This document shows positions 23,546 through 29,396 of a stretch of 64,000 nucleotides of DNA, one piece after another. The DNA is taken from assembly GCA_918797485.1 (NCBI GenBank), contig CAKKNE010000005.1, positions 4,154,001-4,218,000 of the forward strand, given 5' to 3'. This stretch comes from Pelagomonas calceolata (taxonomy: Eukaryota > Sar > Pelagophyceae > Pelagomonadales > Pelagomonadaceae). A model generated the notes under the pieces. It was not told the DNA's origin, searched no databases, and saw only the letters and a list, made by a program, of their open reading frames with translations. The stretch's first letter is position 1. The number at the start of each line of letters is the position of its first letter. The position numbers and the translations under genes are program-made.

Positions 23546-26500
23546 ATGGCGGGTTTCGCAACGATCGCCGCGCTCGACGAGCATTCGTTTGTCTACGGCT
23601 GCTTGCACGATGTAGCTGCTGCAGCACCAGCGGCCGCACCCGCAGCGAGCGGCGGCGCCGTCCCCGCGAAGTTGGTGGAGGAGTGCAAGAAGGCCGGCGA
23701 GGCCGTCGCCGCAGCCAAAAAAAGTGGAGCCTCCAAGGATGAAATTGCGGCCAAGGTCGAGAAGCTCCTATCACTGAAGAAACAGATCACCGCGCTCGAC
23801 CCCACCCACTCTTTAGCAATAGTAGACAAGAAGAAGAAGGCCAAAGCAGCACCTGTAGAAGAGAAGAAGGGCCTTTCCAAAAGAGAACAGAAGCGCCTCG
23901 CGAGAGGCGAGGACGTCAAGAAGAAGAAGAAGGACAAGGATCCCAATAGGTGGGCCGTCGACCCCGCGAAGGCCGCGGCCAAGGCCGAAAAAGCTAGACT
24001 GAAGGCTCTAGCTAAAGCGGAAGCCGAGAAGGCCGACGTCAAAGCAATTGCACCTCCAACGCCGAAAGGAGACAAAAAAATACTGGCCGAGCAGATGTCG
24101 AGGACCTACAACCCGGGCGACGTCGAGGCCGCCTGGCAGGACTGGTGGGAGAAGTCCGGCTGGTACGGCTGCGACGAGAAAAAAGCGTTGAAGCGACCGG
24201 CCGACGAAAAGTTCGTCATGGTACTACCGCGTGTGTGGAAATCAAGTTCAAGCGCCCTTCAATTTTTGGTGTGTCGCGGTCGGCGCGAGGTGTTTCTGTC
24301 CATACTCGGTCGCGTGCATCGCTCGGAGGTCGTGTCCGAGTTTGGGCCTCTCAGATGACCGCGGTGCCGAGATAGCGAGGGACGCGTCGCGTCGATGGCG
24401 TAGAGACCTCGACGACAACCTGACTCACTGGTCGATGTCCACACAGGTCATCCCGCCGCCGAACGTGACTGGTAGTCTGCACTTGGGCCACGCCCTCACG
24501 GCGGCGATCGAAGATTGTCTCACGCGGTGGCACCGCATGCGGGGCGACGCGACGCTGTACGTGCCCGGTACCGATCATGCGGGCATCGCTACCCAATCGG
24601 TCGTCGAGAAGATGCTGGCCAAGCAGTCTCCGCCGGTCTCGAGGCATGATTTGGGGAGGGAAAAGTTCCTGGAGCACGTCTGGGCCTGGAAGGGCCAGTA
24701 CGGTAGTCGCATCTGCACGCAACTGAGAAGGCTTGGTAGTAGCGTGGACTGGTCTCGGGAACGGTTCACGATGGACGAGCGCTGCGCCAAGGCCGTGACG
24801 GAAGCTTTTGTTAGATTCCACGAGGCGGGCATCATGTATCGGGCGTCTCGCCTCGTGAACTGGAGTTGTGCTTTGAAATCAGCCATCTCCGACCTCGAAG
24901 TCGACCACTTGGAACTCAATGGTGGCGAGCTGCGGACGGTCCCGGGCCACGGCGCCACGAAGTACCAGTTCGCCATGTTCACGGAGTTCGCCTATAAAGT
25001 TATAGGTTCGGATGAGGAGGTCGTCGTAGCTACGACACGCTTGGAGACGATGCTGGGGGACGTGGCCGTCGCTGTCCATCCCAAGGACCCTCGCTATAAA
25101 CACTTGCACGGCAAGAAGTTGAAACACCCCTTCTTCCCTTCTCGTGTTGTGACAGTCGTAACCGATGATGTGTTAGTTGACATGGACAAGGGCACCGGGT
25201 GCGTGAAGGTGACGCCGGCCCACGACCCCCACGACTACGACTGCGGGAAGCGGCACGCGCTGCCGTTCATGACCATCTTTTCGCTGGACGGGCGCGTCGT
25301 GACGCAGTGCACGCCGTTTTCGGTCACTGGTGCGGGGGACTACCCGGTCGAGGTGTTCCCATCGTGGATTGCCGGTCAGATGCGCTATGATGCTCGAGTG
25401 TTGGTGGAGAAGAAGCTTGATGAGTTGGGACTGTTGCGAGGCAAAAGCGAGAGACCGATGACCCTAGCTGTGTGCTCTCGTAGTGGTGATATTATCGAGC
25501 CGTTGGTGCAGCCCCAGTGGTTCGTGGACTGCACGGGGCCCGCGAAACGGGCCTGCGACGCGGTCAGGGACGGGTCTCTCAGAATAAGACCGAAGATGCA
25601 CGAGCGGACGTGGTTCAAGTGGTTTGTTGCGGCGTCCTTGCATCGACGCGTCGACGCCGTAACGCGCCACACCACGCAGGCTCGAGGACATAAGGCCCTG
25701 GTGCATCTCGCGCCAGCTCTGGTGGGGCCACCGGATCCCCGCGTGGTTCGCGTTTCGGAAAGGTGAGTCGAGAAATAACGTCGACGTCGACGCCGAACGG
25801 AATAAGGAGCGGTGGATCGTGGCCCGGTCGGAAGCACAGGCTTTAGCACAAGCACAAAAACTCCTGGGGACGAAGGACGTGACCCTAGAACGCGACGAGG
25901 ACGTCCTCGACACGTGCGATCTCGGCGTCCCGTCGTGTACAGGCGCCTTCACGCCGTCGATGCGCGTCGTCTCCATCAGACGAGGTCGTGGGTGGTCTCT
26001 TTTTCGAGTTTGAGGCCGTTCGGACCGTTTCCAGTGAATACGATGCTCCACACAGGTGGTTCTCGTCCGGCCTCTTCCCCTTTTCCGTGTTCGGCTGGCC
26101 CGACGACACGGACGAGTTCAAGGCCTTCTATCCGACGCAGTTGCTCGAGACGGGCCTCGACATCCTCTTCTTCTGGGTGGCCCGCATGGTGATGATGGGG
26201 CTGCAGCTCACGGACAAGTTACCGTTCACGGATGTGTATTTGCATGCCATGGTGCGAGATAAGGACGGCCGCAAAATGTCGAAGTCGCTGGGGAACGTCA
26301 TCGACCCCCTGGAGGTCATCGACGGGTGTCCCTTGGCGCAGCTCGTCGACAAGTTGAAGGCTGGGAATTTAAGGGCTTCTGAGGTCAAGAGGGCGGAAGA
26401 AGCGTTCAAGGCAGACTTCCCCGAGGGCATGCCGCGGTGCGGCACGGATGCTCTCCGAGTAGGGTTATTGGCATACACGGTCCAAGGCCGGGACATCAAC

Positions 26501-27993
26501 TTGGATATTAAGAGAGTTGTCGGTTATCGAAGTTTCTGCAACAAGCTCTGGAACGCCGTGCGGTTTATGCTGGGGACCTTTGACGACTACAAAGCGTCAG
26601 AAAATCTATGGAGTACACTGAAACCTCTCGCGGGCCGAGACAAGTTCATCCTATCACGCTTAAGAAGGTGTGTCTTGGACGTCAACACGTGCCTCACGGA
26701 GTACAAGTTCGGCGAGGCCGTGCAGGCCATCTACCACTTCTTCTTAGATGATTTATGTGACGTTTATGTCGAGCTCGTGAAACCCGTCATGTACGACGAC
26801 GATAAAAAAGGTAAAGGTAGGGACGCGGCGAAAATGGTCCTGTGGGCCTGCTTGGATGCTGGTTTAAGGTTGTTGCATCCGCTGTGTCCCTTCGTGACCG
26901 AGGAATTGTGGCAGCGGTTACCAAGAACCTTTGCCGTTAGCTCAATCATGGTCGCGCCCTATCCTACTCCGTCAGAAGTTGATACGTTCGATAACCAAGA
27001 GGCGGAGCGAGGCACGTCCCTAGTCTTGGAGACCGTCACGGGTGCTCGCTCGTTGCGAGCTCAATATTCACTAGCGAACAAGCCCGCGCACTTCCACGCC
27101 GTGTTTAGCAATGATGCGGAACGAGCATCCATACTAGAGGGGAGGAAGGACGACTGTAGCACACTCATGCGGGCCGCGTCGGTCAGTATCGGGAATAATG
27201 TGACACCTCCAAAAGGGTGCGGCCAGAAGCTCGTCGACGACAAACTCAGTGTCCTGGTGGACCTCAAGGGTCTCGTGGACGCGGATGCCGAAATCAAGAA
27301 GCTCCAGAAAGAACTCAAAACGGTCGAGCCGCTCGTCGCGAAATTAGAAGCGAAGATTAAAGACGCTCGTTACCTCGCGAAGGCGCCGGAGAAGCAACGG
27401 GTGCAGGACCGGGAGAAGTTGAAATCTTATGGCGACAAGGCGGCTGCGGCGCGTGCGGCCATCAAGTCGTGGGAGGAGTTCAAGTCGGGCGGTGGTGAGG
27501 AGGAGGAGGATGATTTCTGGGCCGAGGACGACGAGGACGATCCGGCGGCCGCGGCGGCGCTGGAGGAGGCCAAGGCCAAAGCCATGGCCAAGCTCGCGAA
27601 GAAGGAGGCGAACCAGCGGTCGTTATCTGTGCATAGATTAAATTGTTGCGACGCGTCTCGCGACGCCAGCTCGATGGCGTGGCGGGGTCTCCCACCCAAC
27701 TTACCGGTTGATTTACGCACAGGTCGTTATGTAACCTCGAGATCAAGCCCTGGGAGGCGGACCAGGACCTGAAGGCGCTCTACGCCAAGATCAAGGCGAC
27801 GGTCGTGAAGGACGGGCTCAAGTGGAGCGAGGGGTTGAAGTTGGTCGACGTGGCCTTCGGCGTGCAGAAAATTATCTGTACTGCGGTCGTCAACCAGAGC
27901 TTGTCCATGGACGCCATCATCGAAGAAATCACTGAAGAACTCTTCACGGACGAGGTCCAGTCCATGAGCATGACTTCGATGTCGCTGCTCTAG
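23546..27993 (+). CDS. VARS: Valyl-tRNA synthetase fused to eEF1B guanine-nucleotide-exchange domain (WHEP-ValRS-eEF1B), five exons
   Basis: Exons 23546-24220, 24447-25621, 25680-25913, 26056-27618 and 27723-27993 sum to 3918 nt, 1305 residues. ATG 23546 is the first in frame. Order: WHEP-like RNA-binding helix-turn-helix (about 38-86); Lys/Ala-rich linker; class I ValRS core with HIGH motif HLGH (about 237) in [43 protein letters not shown] and KMSKS (about 768); anticodon-binding helices; C-terminal coiled coil; acidic block [11 protein letters not shown]; then about 90 residues of eEF1B alpha/beta GEF domain ([38 protein letters not shown]). In animals ValRS binds the eEF1H complex as a separate chain; here the exchange domain is covalent. 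It charges tRNA-Val and probably recycles eEF1A. Confidence 0.95.
24221..24446 (+). mobile_element. Introner: intron 1 of ValRS-eEF1B, 226 bp
   Basis: Left TGTGGAAATCAAG, right GTCGATGTCCACACAG. GTACTACC at the donor and GTCATCCC after the acceptor match at 5 of 8. Removal restores [13 protein letters not shown], invariant in ValRS. Phase 0. Confidence 0.9.
25622..25679 (+). mobile_element. Short introner-like intron 2 of ValRS-eEF1B, 58 bp
   Basis: Donor GTTTGTTG, acceptor CCACGCAG, next exon GCTCGAGG. The core CATCGACGCGTCGACGCCGT is palindromic. Restores FKWLEDIRPW. Phase 2. Confidence 0.85.
25914..26055 (+). mobile_element. Introner (second type): intron 3 of ValRS-eEF1B, 142 bp
   Basis: It begins GTGCGATCTCGGCGTCCC like 14858 and ends CGATGCTCCACACAG. 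Restores [14 protein letters not shown]. Because the donor octamer is the same at two unrelated targets, the donor here seems to be carried by the element. Confidence 0.88.
27619..27722 (+). mobile_element. Introner: intron 4 of ValRS-eEF1B, 104 bp, perfect 8-bp duplication
   Basis: GTCGTTAT stands at both junctions. Ends CTGTGCATAGATTAA and TTGATTTACGCACAG are inverted with few mismatches. It lies between the acidic linker and the eEF1B domain, so the domain fusion is only visible after splicing. Phase 2. Confidence 0.95.
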
Positions 27994-28022: not shown

Positions 28023-29396
28023 TTAAACAACGGCCCCGCGCGGGCTGTCGAGCTTCGACGGCGGGACGCGCCCCATGGGTGTCGGCACGCGCTCCCCTTG
28101 GACGACCGGCGGCTCGTACGACGACTGACGCTCGGACATCTCCAGGGACCGTTGGTTCGACCGCTGGTCCTTCTTGCACCGGGCACAGATGGCCATTATA
28201 CTGATAATGATAACCATAATGAGGACGAGTGCGAAGAACACCTGTAAGCCACTTCGGCTGCCGTGTACATACTTCTTTTTAGCGGCCGCGACGGTCGGTG
28301 CTTGCGTAGGTTTCTGTGTAGGTTGGAGCGTCTCCTGCATGAGGTCTGCGGGGCCGCAGCACCTGCGTGGAAACGCGTCGATGGCGTGGGGGCGGACGCG
28401 TTTGATTTCCGCACGGTCTGTCACTGGTATATCGCCCCTTGGCCGAAGGCCGCCTTGCACGGAGCCCAGCCGGATTTTCCTGTAGGGTCGGGGGCCGGGT
28501 GGTAGCCCGCGATGCCACAGCCACGTTTCTCCCCTTCGGGAGCGCAGCAGTCGCTGTCGCGGTCGACGCAGATGTCGGACCGGCACGTCTCCTTGTACTC
28601 GTCCTTGGGGATGCAGCACTGGTAGATCGCGTCCTGGCCGAAGGCCGCCTTGCACGGAGCCCAGCCCGACCGCCCGTGCATGTCCGCCGTGACCTTGTAG
28701 CCGTCGACCTTGCACCCCCGGGGCTCGTTCTTCGTGCCCTGTTCGCCGCCCGTCGCGCAGCAGTCGTCGTCGCGATCCTTACATATATCGGAGCGGCACA
28801 CTTCGTTCGGGCTAGCAAATTCCGTATCTCTGCAACACTTGTAGGTCGCGTCCGTGCCGAAGGCCGCGTGGCACGGCGCCCAGCCGCTCCGGCCGGTGGG
28901 ATCGGGCTTTACCACAAAGCCAGGGATACTACATCCGCGGGGCTCGGGCTTGTCGCCCGCGCCTTCGCCACCGAGCGGCGCGCAGCAGTCGTTGTCCCTG
29001 TCAAGGCCTGCGTGCACAAAAACGTATCGCGTCGATAGCGTGGAGGCTCGTCTCGGGAAACGCACATATGTCGGTCCGGCACTCCTCCTCCTCCGACGGC
29101 GTGACGGTTGGCGCGAAGGTCGAGCGCCGGGGCGGCGGAAGCTCCGACTCGCAGGTGTCGCACGTTTTTCTACACGCCTCCTGCGCCGTTCTGTCGTCGC
29201 CGTGGACGTCGCAGCGCGTCGGCAGGAGCTCGCTCACCCACTGGCAGTTCTTGGTCTCGTCGTCTTTTTTGTGCCAGGTCGAATCGTCGGCGCAGGCCGG
29301 CGGCGACGGCTCCGCCGGGCCCGAAGCGGGCGGCGGCGTCTGCGCGTGGATCGAGGCGAGTATCAGAGCCGCTCTGAGCATCGACCGACGAGACAT
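28023..29396 (-). CDS. Cys-rich repeat receptor-like type I membrane protein, three exons
   Basis: Exons 29396-29066, 29007-28425 and 28362-28023 give 417 residues. Signal peptide MSRRSMLRAALILASIHAQ. A six-Cys ShKT-like module (ACADDSTWHKK...CESE) follows. Then come three tandem units of about 60 residues with the pattern C-R-[ST]-D-I-C-x-D-R-D-x-D-C-C-A, a PRGC strand, GRSGWAPCxAAFGxDAxYxCC. A Thr/Pro/Gln-rich stalk (TLQPTQKPTQAPT), one transmembrane helix (VFFALVLIMVIIISIMAIC) and a polar cytosolic tail complete it. The first intron joins DIC to LDRDNDCC and the second joins IYQ to CCG; both fit the sister repeats. The unit is not one I can name. A surface adhesion or sensing role is inferred. 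Confidence 0.76.
28363..28424 (-). mobile_element. Introner: intron 2 of the Cys-rich receptor gene, 62 bp
   Basis: Left CCGTGCGGAAATCAAACGCG, right GCGTTTCCACGCAG: nearly a bare pair of inverted ends around CCATCGACGC. Donor GTGACAGA, next exon GTGCTGCG. Phase 2. Confidence 0.85.
29008..29065 (-). mobile_element. Short introner-like intron 1 of the Cys-rich receptor gene, 58 bp
   Basis: Donor GTGCGTTT, acceptor GCACGCAG, next exon GCCTTGAC; interior GCTATCGACGCGATAC. Phase 1. Confidence 0.78.

Follow-up and report, generated by a model that had tools for sequence, protein, structure and literature searches.

We examined a stretch of 64,000 nucleotides of Pelagomonas calceolata DNA (hereafter the window), taken from contig 5 of a genome of 8 contigs and 32.4 Mb, and we found in it a predicted five-exon gene that joins valyl-tRNA synthetase (ValRS) to the guanine-nucleotide exchange factor (GEF) domain of the elongation factor eEF1B. 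The published assembly of this species is described as six nuclear contigs totalling 32.4 Mb, together with plastid and mitochondrial sequences (PMC9481584; here and below, cited papers are used in excerpt). Upon removal of four introns, the five joined exons give 3918 nt with a single stop and a protein of 1305 aa, and since none of the intron lengths is a multiple of 3, the removal of each is required. Pfam assigns to this protein the domains tRNA-synt_1 (E 3.9e-138), Anticodon_1 (E 2.1e-33), Val_tRNA-synt_C (E 3.4e-7) and EF1_GNE (E 1.6e-16, 60.6 bits versus a cut-off of 20.8), and no GST domain at E 0.001. An earlier note on this DNA had described one 1305-residue frame running from a WHEP domain through a complete ValRS and a linker into the GEF; the frame, the synthetase, the linker and the GEF stood, whereas the WHEP match is weak and falls below the Pfam cut-off (E 1.1e-5, 25.8 bits versus 32.5). 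The HLGH (24480-24491) and KMSKS (26273-26287) signatures are both intact by reading of the sequence only, as that note had claimed.

We next turn to the relatives, which were collected with the GEF region as query and a length range set by the fused protein (about 439 to 2284 aa), so that stand-alone eEF1B was shut out by design. The search reaches only relatives that share 5-residue words within this range, so that the fusions listed are a minimum and allow little to be concluded on absence elsewhere. Searching with the GEF of the window returned 11 proteins of 287 candidates, whereas the GEF regions of two of the matches returned 4 of 251 (P0010, 2 new) and 3 of 3101 (P0013, 2 new). All 15 distinct matches are synthetases, namely five ValRS (P0001, P0003, P0010, P0011, P0012), four seryl-tRNA synthetases (SerRS; P0004, P0005, P0008, P0009), four lysyl-tRNA synthetases (LysRS; P0007, P0013, P0014, P0015) and two glycyl-tRNA synthetases (GlyRS; P0002, P0006). 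Pfam scans covered the window protein and 14 of the 15 matches (not P0005), and NCBIfam scans 11 of the 15 (not P0001, P0003, P0005, P0012); P0005, a near-copy of P0004, was assigned to SerRS by its search-row domains and source name. Two of the matches have transcriptome sources: the SerRS fusion P0008 carries an MMETSP transcriptome name from the dictyochophyte Rhizochromulina marina, and the LysRS fusion P0013 comes from MMETSP and UniRef sources of Heterosigma akashiwo. No relatives were found in scans of the viral and genome collections. The same GEF occurs on SerRS, GlyRS and LysRS elsewhere, which makes the ValRS fusion a member of a series.

The five ValRS matches supply the proteins with both domains that the earlier note had proposed to look for, the GEF being only partial in P0011 and in the fragment P0012. 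Identity of the ValRS body to the window is 95% for P0011, 87% for P0001, 78% for P0003 and 61% for P0010, in which ValRS is partial, and P0011 exceeds the NCBIfam TIGR00422 valine--tRNA ligase cut-off (935 versus 612.1 bits). With P0012 left out, linker and GEF are attached at one and the same point behind the ValRS arm in all of them. The domain scores, together with separate sequences sharing the junction, exclude a chance join. The covalent fusion of ValRS to the eEF1B exchange domain in one frame, as first claimed in the earlier note, is thus confirmed at the level of the predicted protein, and it is conserved among relatives.

Table 1. Features of the fused ValRS-eEF1B gene in the window
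Feature	Position	Strand	Basis
Exon 1: start, WHEP-like helices, basic stretch, beginning of ValRS	23546..24220	+	spliced translation, Pfam
WHEP-like helices (below Pfam cut-off)	about 23678-23797	+	Pfam
Intron 1, 226 nt, GT-AG	24221..24446	+	spliced translation
Exon 2: ValRS catalytic core with HLGH, editing region	24447..25621	+	translation, reading, Pfam
Intron 2, 58 nt, GT-AG	25622..25679	+	spliced translation
Exon 3: ValRS catalytic core, continued	25680..25913	+	translation, Pfam
Intron 3, 142 nt, GT-AG	25914..26055	+	spliced translation
Exon 4: KMSKS, anticodon-binding domain, ValRS C-terminal arm, acidic linker	26056..27618	+	translation, reading, Pfam
Anticodon-binding domain (exon 4)	about 26639-27082	+	converted from protein positions
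ValRS C-terminal arm (exon 4)	about 27278-27466	+	converted from protein positions
Acidic, helical linker, resembling linkers of the genome's other eEF1B genes	about 27476..27610	+	junction common to ValRS relatives
Intron 4, 104 nt, GT-AG, between linker and GEF; repeat-family, introner-like	27619..27722	+	genome matches, direct repeat
Exon 5: eEF1B GEF domain (EF1_GNE), stop	27723..27993	+	translation, Pfam, paralogue comparison

Upon searching the genome exon by exon, we find EF1_GNE at three places (3 of 3 candidates scored), the window, C2:1653061-1653312 and C4:158614-158760, and no EF1_GNE gene beyond those three. The count of stand-alone eEF1B genes that had been suggested thus yields two further GEF genes, on contigs 2 and 4 (C2 and C4), whose upstream exons were examined within loci L001 and L003. 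C2 reads as a complete eEF1B in which linker and GEF are clear; its N-terminal docking domain is assigned by reading and by similarity to SerRS segments described below, and Pfam names none there. In C4 the linker and GEF lie in two exons and the N-terminus differs. Additionally, the genome holds one eEF1Bgamma gene, and two of its 21 eEF1A matches are genes that score above the cut-off. These two eEF1A genes lie close together with equal scores (L024 and L025, contig 1, 4417865-4421367), and the eEF1Bgamma gene is some 54 kb away. One other ValRS, with a long N-terminal extension, exceeds the TIGR00422 cut-off (4 of 16 candidates scored), and a further weaker match resembles isoleucyl-tRNA synthetase by reading. 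Because this other ValRS has the extension and sits on a very long branch of the six-row ValRS tree, the fused enzyme is probably the cytosolic ValRS. Beside the fused gene, a minus-strand frame at 28421-29233 encodes repeated cysteine-rich units (GWAPCKAAFGQ...YQCC).

The intron that separates linker and GEF can be traced through the same paralogues. Intron 4 is flanked by a 9-nt direct repeat, GGTCGTTAT, at 27618-27626 and 27722-27730, and it matches 15 places in the genome, itself included, the other 14 aligning with some or most of its length at 70-84%. Introns whose lengths are typical of introner elements are noted in the genome paper (PMC9481584). In both paralogues the site is uninterrupted and in the same frame, the sequence across it being GCGAACCAGCG/GTCGTTATGTAAC in the spliced window, GCGAACCAACG/GTCGTTGTGTAAC in C2 and GCGAACCAGCG/GTCGCTCTGCAAT in C4, which indicates that the spliced frame is the frame that predates the insertion of intron 4. 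We also count 43 occurrences of CGTCGATGGCG across the window, at most one mismatch being allowed, versus 4.3 expected (for example at 24390-24400 and 28376-28386); its presence in intron 1 and, shortened, in intron 4 suggests that it is probably a marker of the repeat family of introns.

Across the end of the linker and the GEF, the fused copy is identical to each paralogue at 105 of 109 positions (the stop counted as one), and C2 and C4 are identical at all 109. Synonymous divergence (dS, NG86) is 0.527 between the fused copy and C2 (1.19 by YN00), with a nonsynonymous divergence (dN) of 0.032, 1.43 between the fused copy and C4, and 0.89 between C2 and C4; these values are rough, being NG86 estimates from 327 nt that include a dN of 0.016 for C2 and C4 despite identical proteins. 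The protein sequence of the GEF has hardly altered despite extensive change at silent sites. A recent duplication from a stand-alone gene was rejected as the sole account, given a dS of 0.53-1.43 at this protein identity and a junction common to relatives. Synonymous differences between the fused copy and C2 number 3 of 33 in the first 35 codons and 22 of 64 in the remainder (Fisher p 0.007, with the split chosen post hoc), and a run-length test on the differences gave p 0.36, so gene conversion with the C2 copy is suggestive only.

Upon examining the C-terminus of the GEF, we observed that MSLL forms the last residues in the window (27979-27990), in both paralogues and in P0001-P0004, P0005 and P0006-P0009. 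At the position of the lysine reported as key for exchange in yeast eEF1Balpha (K205), the window and its two paralogues all have Leu; among relatives, P0013 and P0015 have Lys there, P0014 has Arg and P0010 has Val. Because no other EF1_GNE gene was found in the genome, this alga probably manages exchange with no lysine at that position, or with a different residue in its stead.

The trees of the two moieties differ in their bearing on the number of fusion events. In the ValRS-body tree (six rows, P0012 left out), the window and P0011 are joined in turn by P0001, P0003 and P0010, and all three inner branches are supported. In the GEF tree (17 rows and 91 columns, without P0005, P0011 and P0012), ValRS, SerRS, GlyRS, P0007 and both paralogues are intermingled in one supported group, and P0010 falls outside it. 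A single clade of the four full ValRS GEFs was rejected by the approximately unbiased (AU) test (p 0.0013), and a clade of the window and P0001 GEFs was not (p-AU 0.33); the fused GEF shares 96% identity with its own paralogues and 90% with P0001. The ValRS bodies and the junction would fit one fusion, and our guess is that the GEFs were homogenised later within genomes. Overall, the pattern may reflect either repeated fusions from similar donors or within-genome homogenisation of the GEF.

Pieces of eEF1B other than the GEF were found on synthetases as well. In the four SerRS matches, the segment before the linker resembles the N-terminal part of the C2 eEF1B (BLAST E 4e-4, 4e-4, 4e-4 and 0.01; phmmer E 0.003 to 0.016, in a set of 16 proteins in which the chance level is given by P0003 at E 1.6 and above). 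A profile built from three of these segments and the SerRS of the genome has as its top PDB row 5dqs_D, Elongation factor 1-beta (E 2.9e-8), the next of the 29 rows being a GST (E 0.005). This genomic SerRS, which carries a WHEP domain (L012:1294-3330, contig 4), stops directly after the eEF1B N-terminal-like domain, and the EF1_GNE search of the genome found no GEF at its locus. In this genome the exchange half therefore lies on ValRS and a docking-like half on SerRS. A possible similar segment in the LysRS fusions P0013 and P0014 gives a weak match (phmmer E 0.35 and 0.81), and in P0013 GST_C_2 is below the Pfam cut-off. P0015 has a build unlike that of the other LysRS fusions, in which LysRS is followed by a GST-like part and then by the GEF.

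We think it fairly likely, from the sequence evidence above, that the gene encodes a single-chain, probably cytosolic ValRS whose C-terminal eEF1A exchange module enables it to pass Val-tRNA on to an eEF1A molecule that this module has recharged. The synthetase moiety would make Val-tRNA, and the GEF, on its native acidic and flexible linker, would catch eEF1A-GDP beside the active site and help to load GTP onto it, so that fresh eEF1A-GTP would take the Val-tRNA before it diffuses away; we infer both the exchange activity and the hand-over. The presence of the partner genes eEF1A and eEF1Bgamma argues for this mechanism, and the occurrence of eEF1B parts on ValRS, SerRS, GlyRS and LysRS in the algal group suggests that a coupling of charging to elongation has been favoured by selection. 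Several observations weigh against it. The other GEF genes mean that the fused GEF is not the sole exchanger, and no GEF is present on the genes that best match SerRS, GlyRS and LysRS in this genome, so that the link is not required for every synthetase. The rejection of a single ValRS GEF clade counts here too, and Leu in place of the key lysine in all three GEFs of the genome speaks against simple catalysis.

This substitution also bears on an account that we hold to be unlikely, in which the appended GEF is a docking arm that holds eEF1A near the synthetase and performs little exchange, this being left to the other eEF1B genes. Besides the Leu, the two further GEF genes and the difference of the fused copy at 4 of 109 positions from paralogues that are identical to each other would agree with it, but the same Leu in those paralogues, in a genome where no other EF1_GNE gene was found, means that it need not signify lost activity. 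Less probable still is a passive fusion, in which two separate functions sit on one polypeptide for reasons of expression or stoichiometry and no tRNA is handed over; fusions may persist neutrally, yet this module sits on four different synthetases and on nothing else among the length-limited search matches, and the ValRS fusions persist down to 61% identity. We regard it as very improbable that the locus makes two products, a GEF-less ValRS by retention of intron 4, which would bring the frame to a stop at 27772 and lose the GEF, or a free GEF from an internal start in exon 4, for which an in-frame ATG in the linker (27584-27586) is available, since the frame is uninterrupted in relatives. 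Scarcely any weight falls on an assembly or gene-model artefact, for which no supporting point was found: the same junction occurs in separate sequences, and the excerpt of PMC9481584 reports no chimeras by Hi-C in the published P. calceolata assembly. A splicing or assembly artefact was likewise rejected on the junction of the relatives, the empty site of the paralogues and the direct repeat at intron 4.

The fused ValRS resembles several known systems in part. As in stand-alone eEF1Balpha and eEF1Bdelta, an acidic linker precedes EF1_GNE, and by sequence the GEF is best matched in the PDB by 2n51, an EF1-delta, together with 2b7b and 1f60, both chains of eEF1Balpha, these being human and yeast proteins; the algal chain differs in having no recognised N-terminal docking domain and in the Leu at the key lysine. 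The domains usually appended to eukaryotic synthetases (WHEP, GST, EMAPII-like) bind tRNA or proteins, whereas the algal addition, likewise appended, is an exchange-factor domain for the next step. In vertebrates, ValRS binds EF1A/EF1B via a GST-like N-terminal domain (PMC4394549), a precedent for the association of ValRS with the eEF1A exchange factor that is non-covalent, in agreement with the background given in the earlier note on the animal complex; docking there is GST-like, whereas the algal ValRS is without a Pfam GST and has the exchange domain within its chain. According to the same excerpt, this GST-like domain could be restricted to Deuterostomia, and a report on Artemia is among the references of the review (PMC4394549). 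An eEF1B fusion is also described in Thecamonas trahens, but there the partner is a kinase and not a synthetase (PMC3938643). A literature search by title and abstract opening, with subscription papers and supplements mostly outside it, found no description of a natural synthetase-eEF1B fusion, in line with what had been stated before.

For the wider group we offer a tentative proposal, which we would put somewhat short of even: in ochrophyte algae eEF1B may have been split among synthetases, with the exchange half on ValRS and the docking half on SerRS in this genome, both brought by eEF1Bgamma into a single eEF1A/eEF1B charging station, and whole or part of eEF1B on SerRS, GlyRS and LysRS elsewhere. 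Such an arrangement would amount to a multi-synthetase complex organised around the elongation factor and independent in origin of the animal complex, and the GEF domains of any one genome would be held similar to one another. Whether a synthetase passes its aminoacyl-tRNA directly to eEF1A has long been debated on the evidence of loose complexes, and a covalent link, found on four synthetases, makes hand-over testable with one purified protein. In a tiny ocean alga, tRNA charging and the recharging of the elongation factor, both steps of protein synthesis, look as though they are physically coupled. Pelagomonas calceolata is among the most abundant ocean eukaryotes (PMC9481584), and the fusion bears on how such abundant ocean algae run translation.

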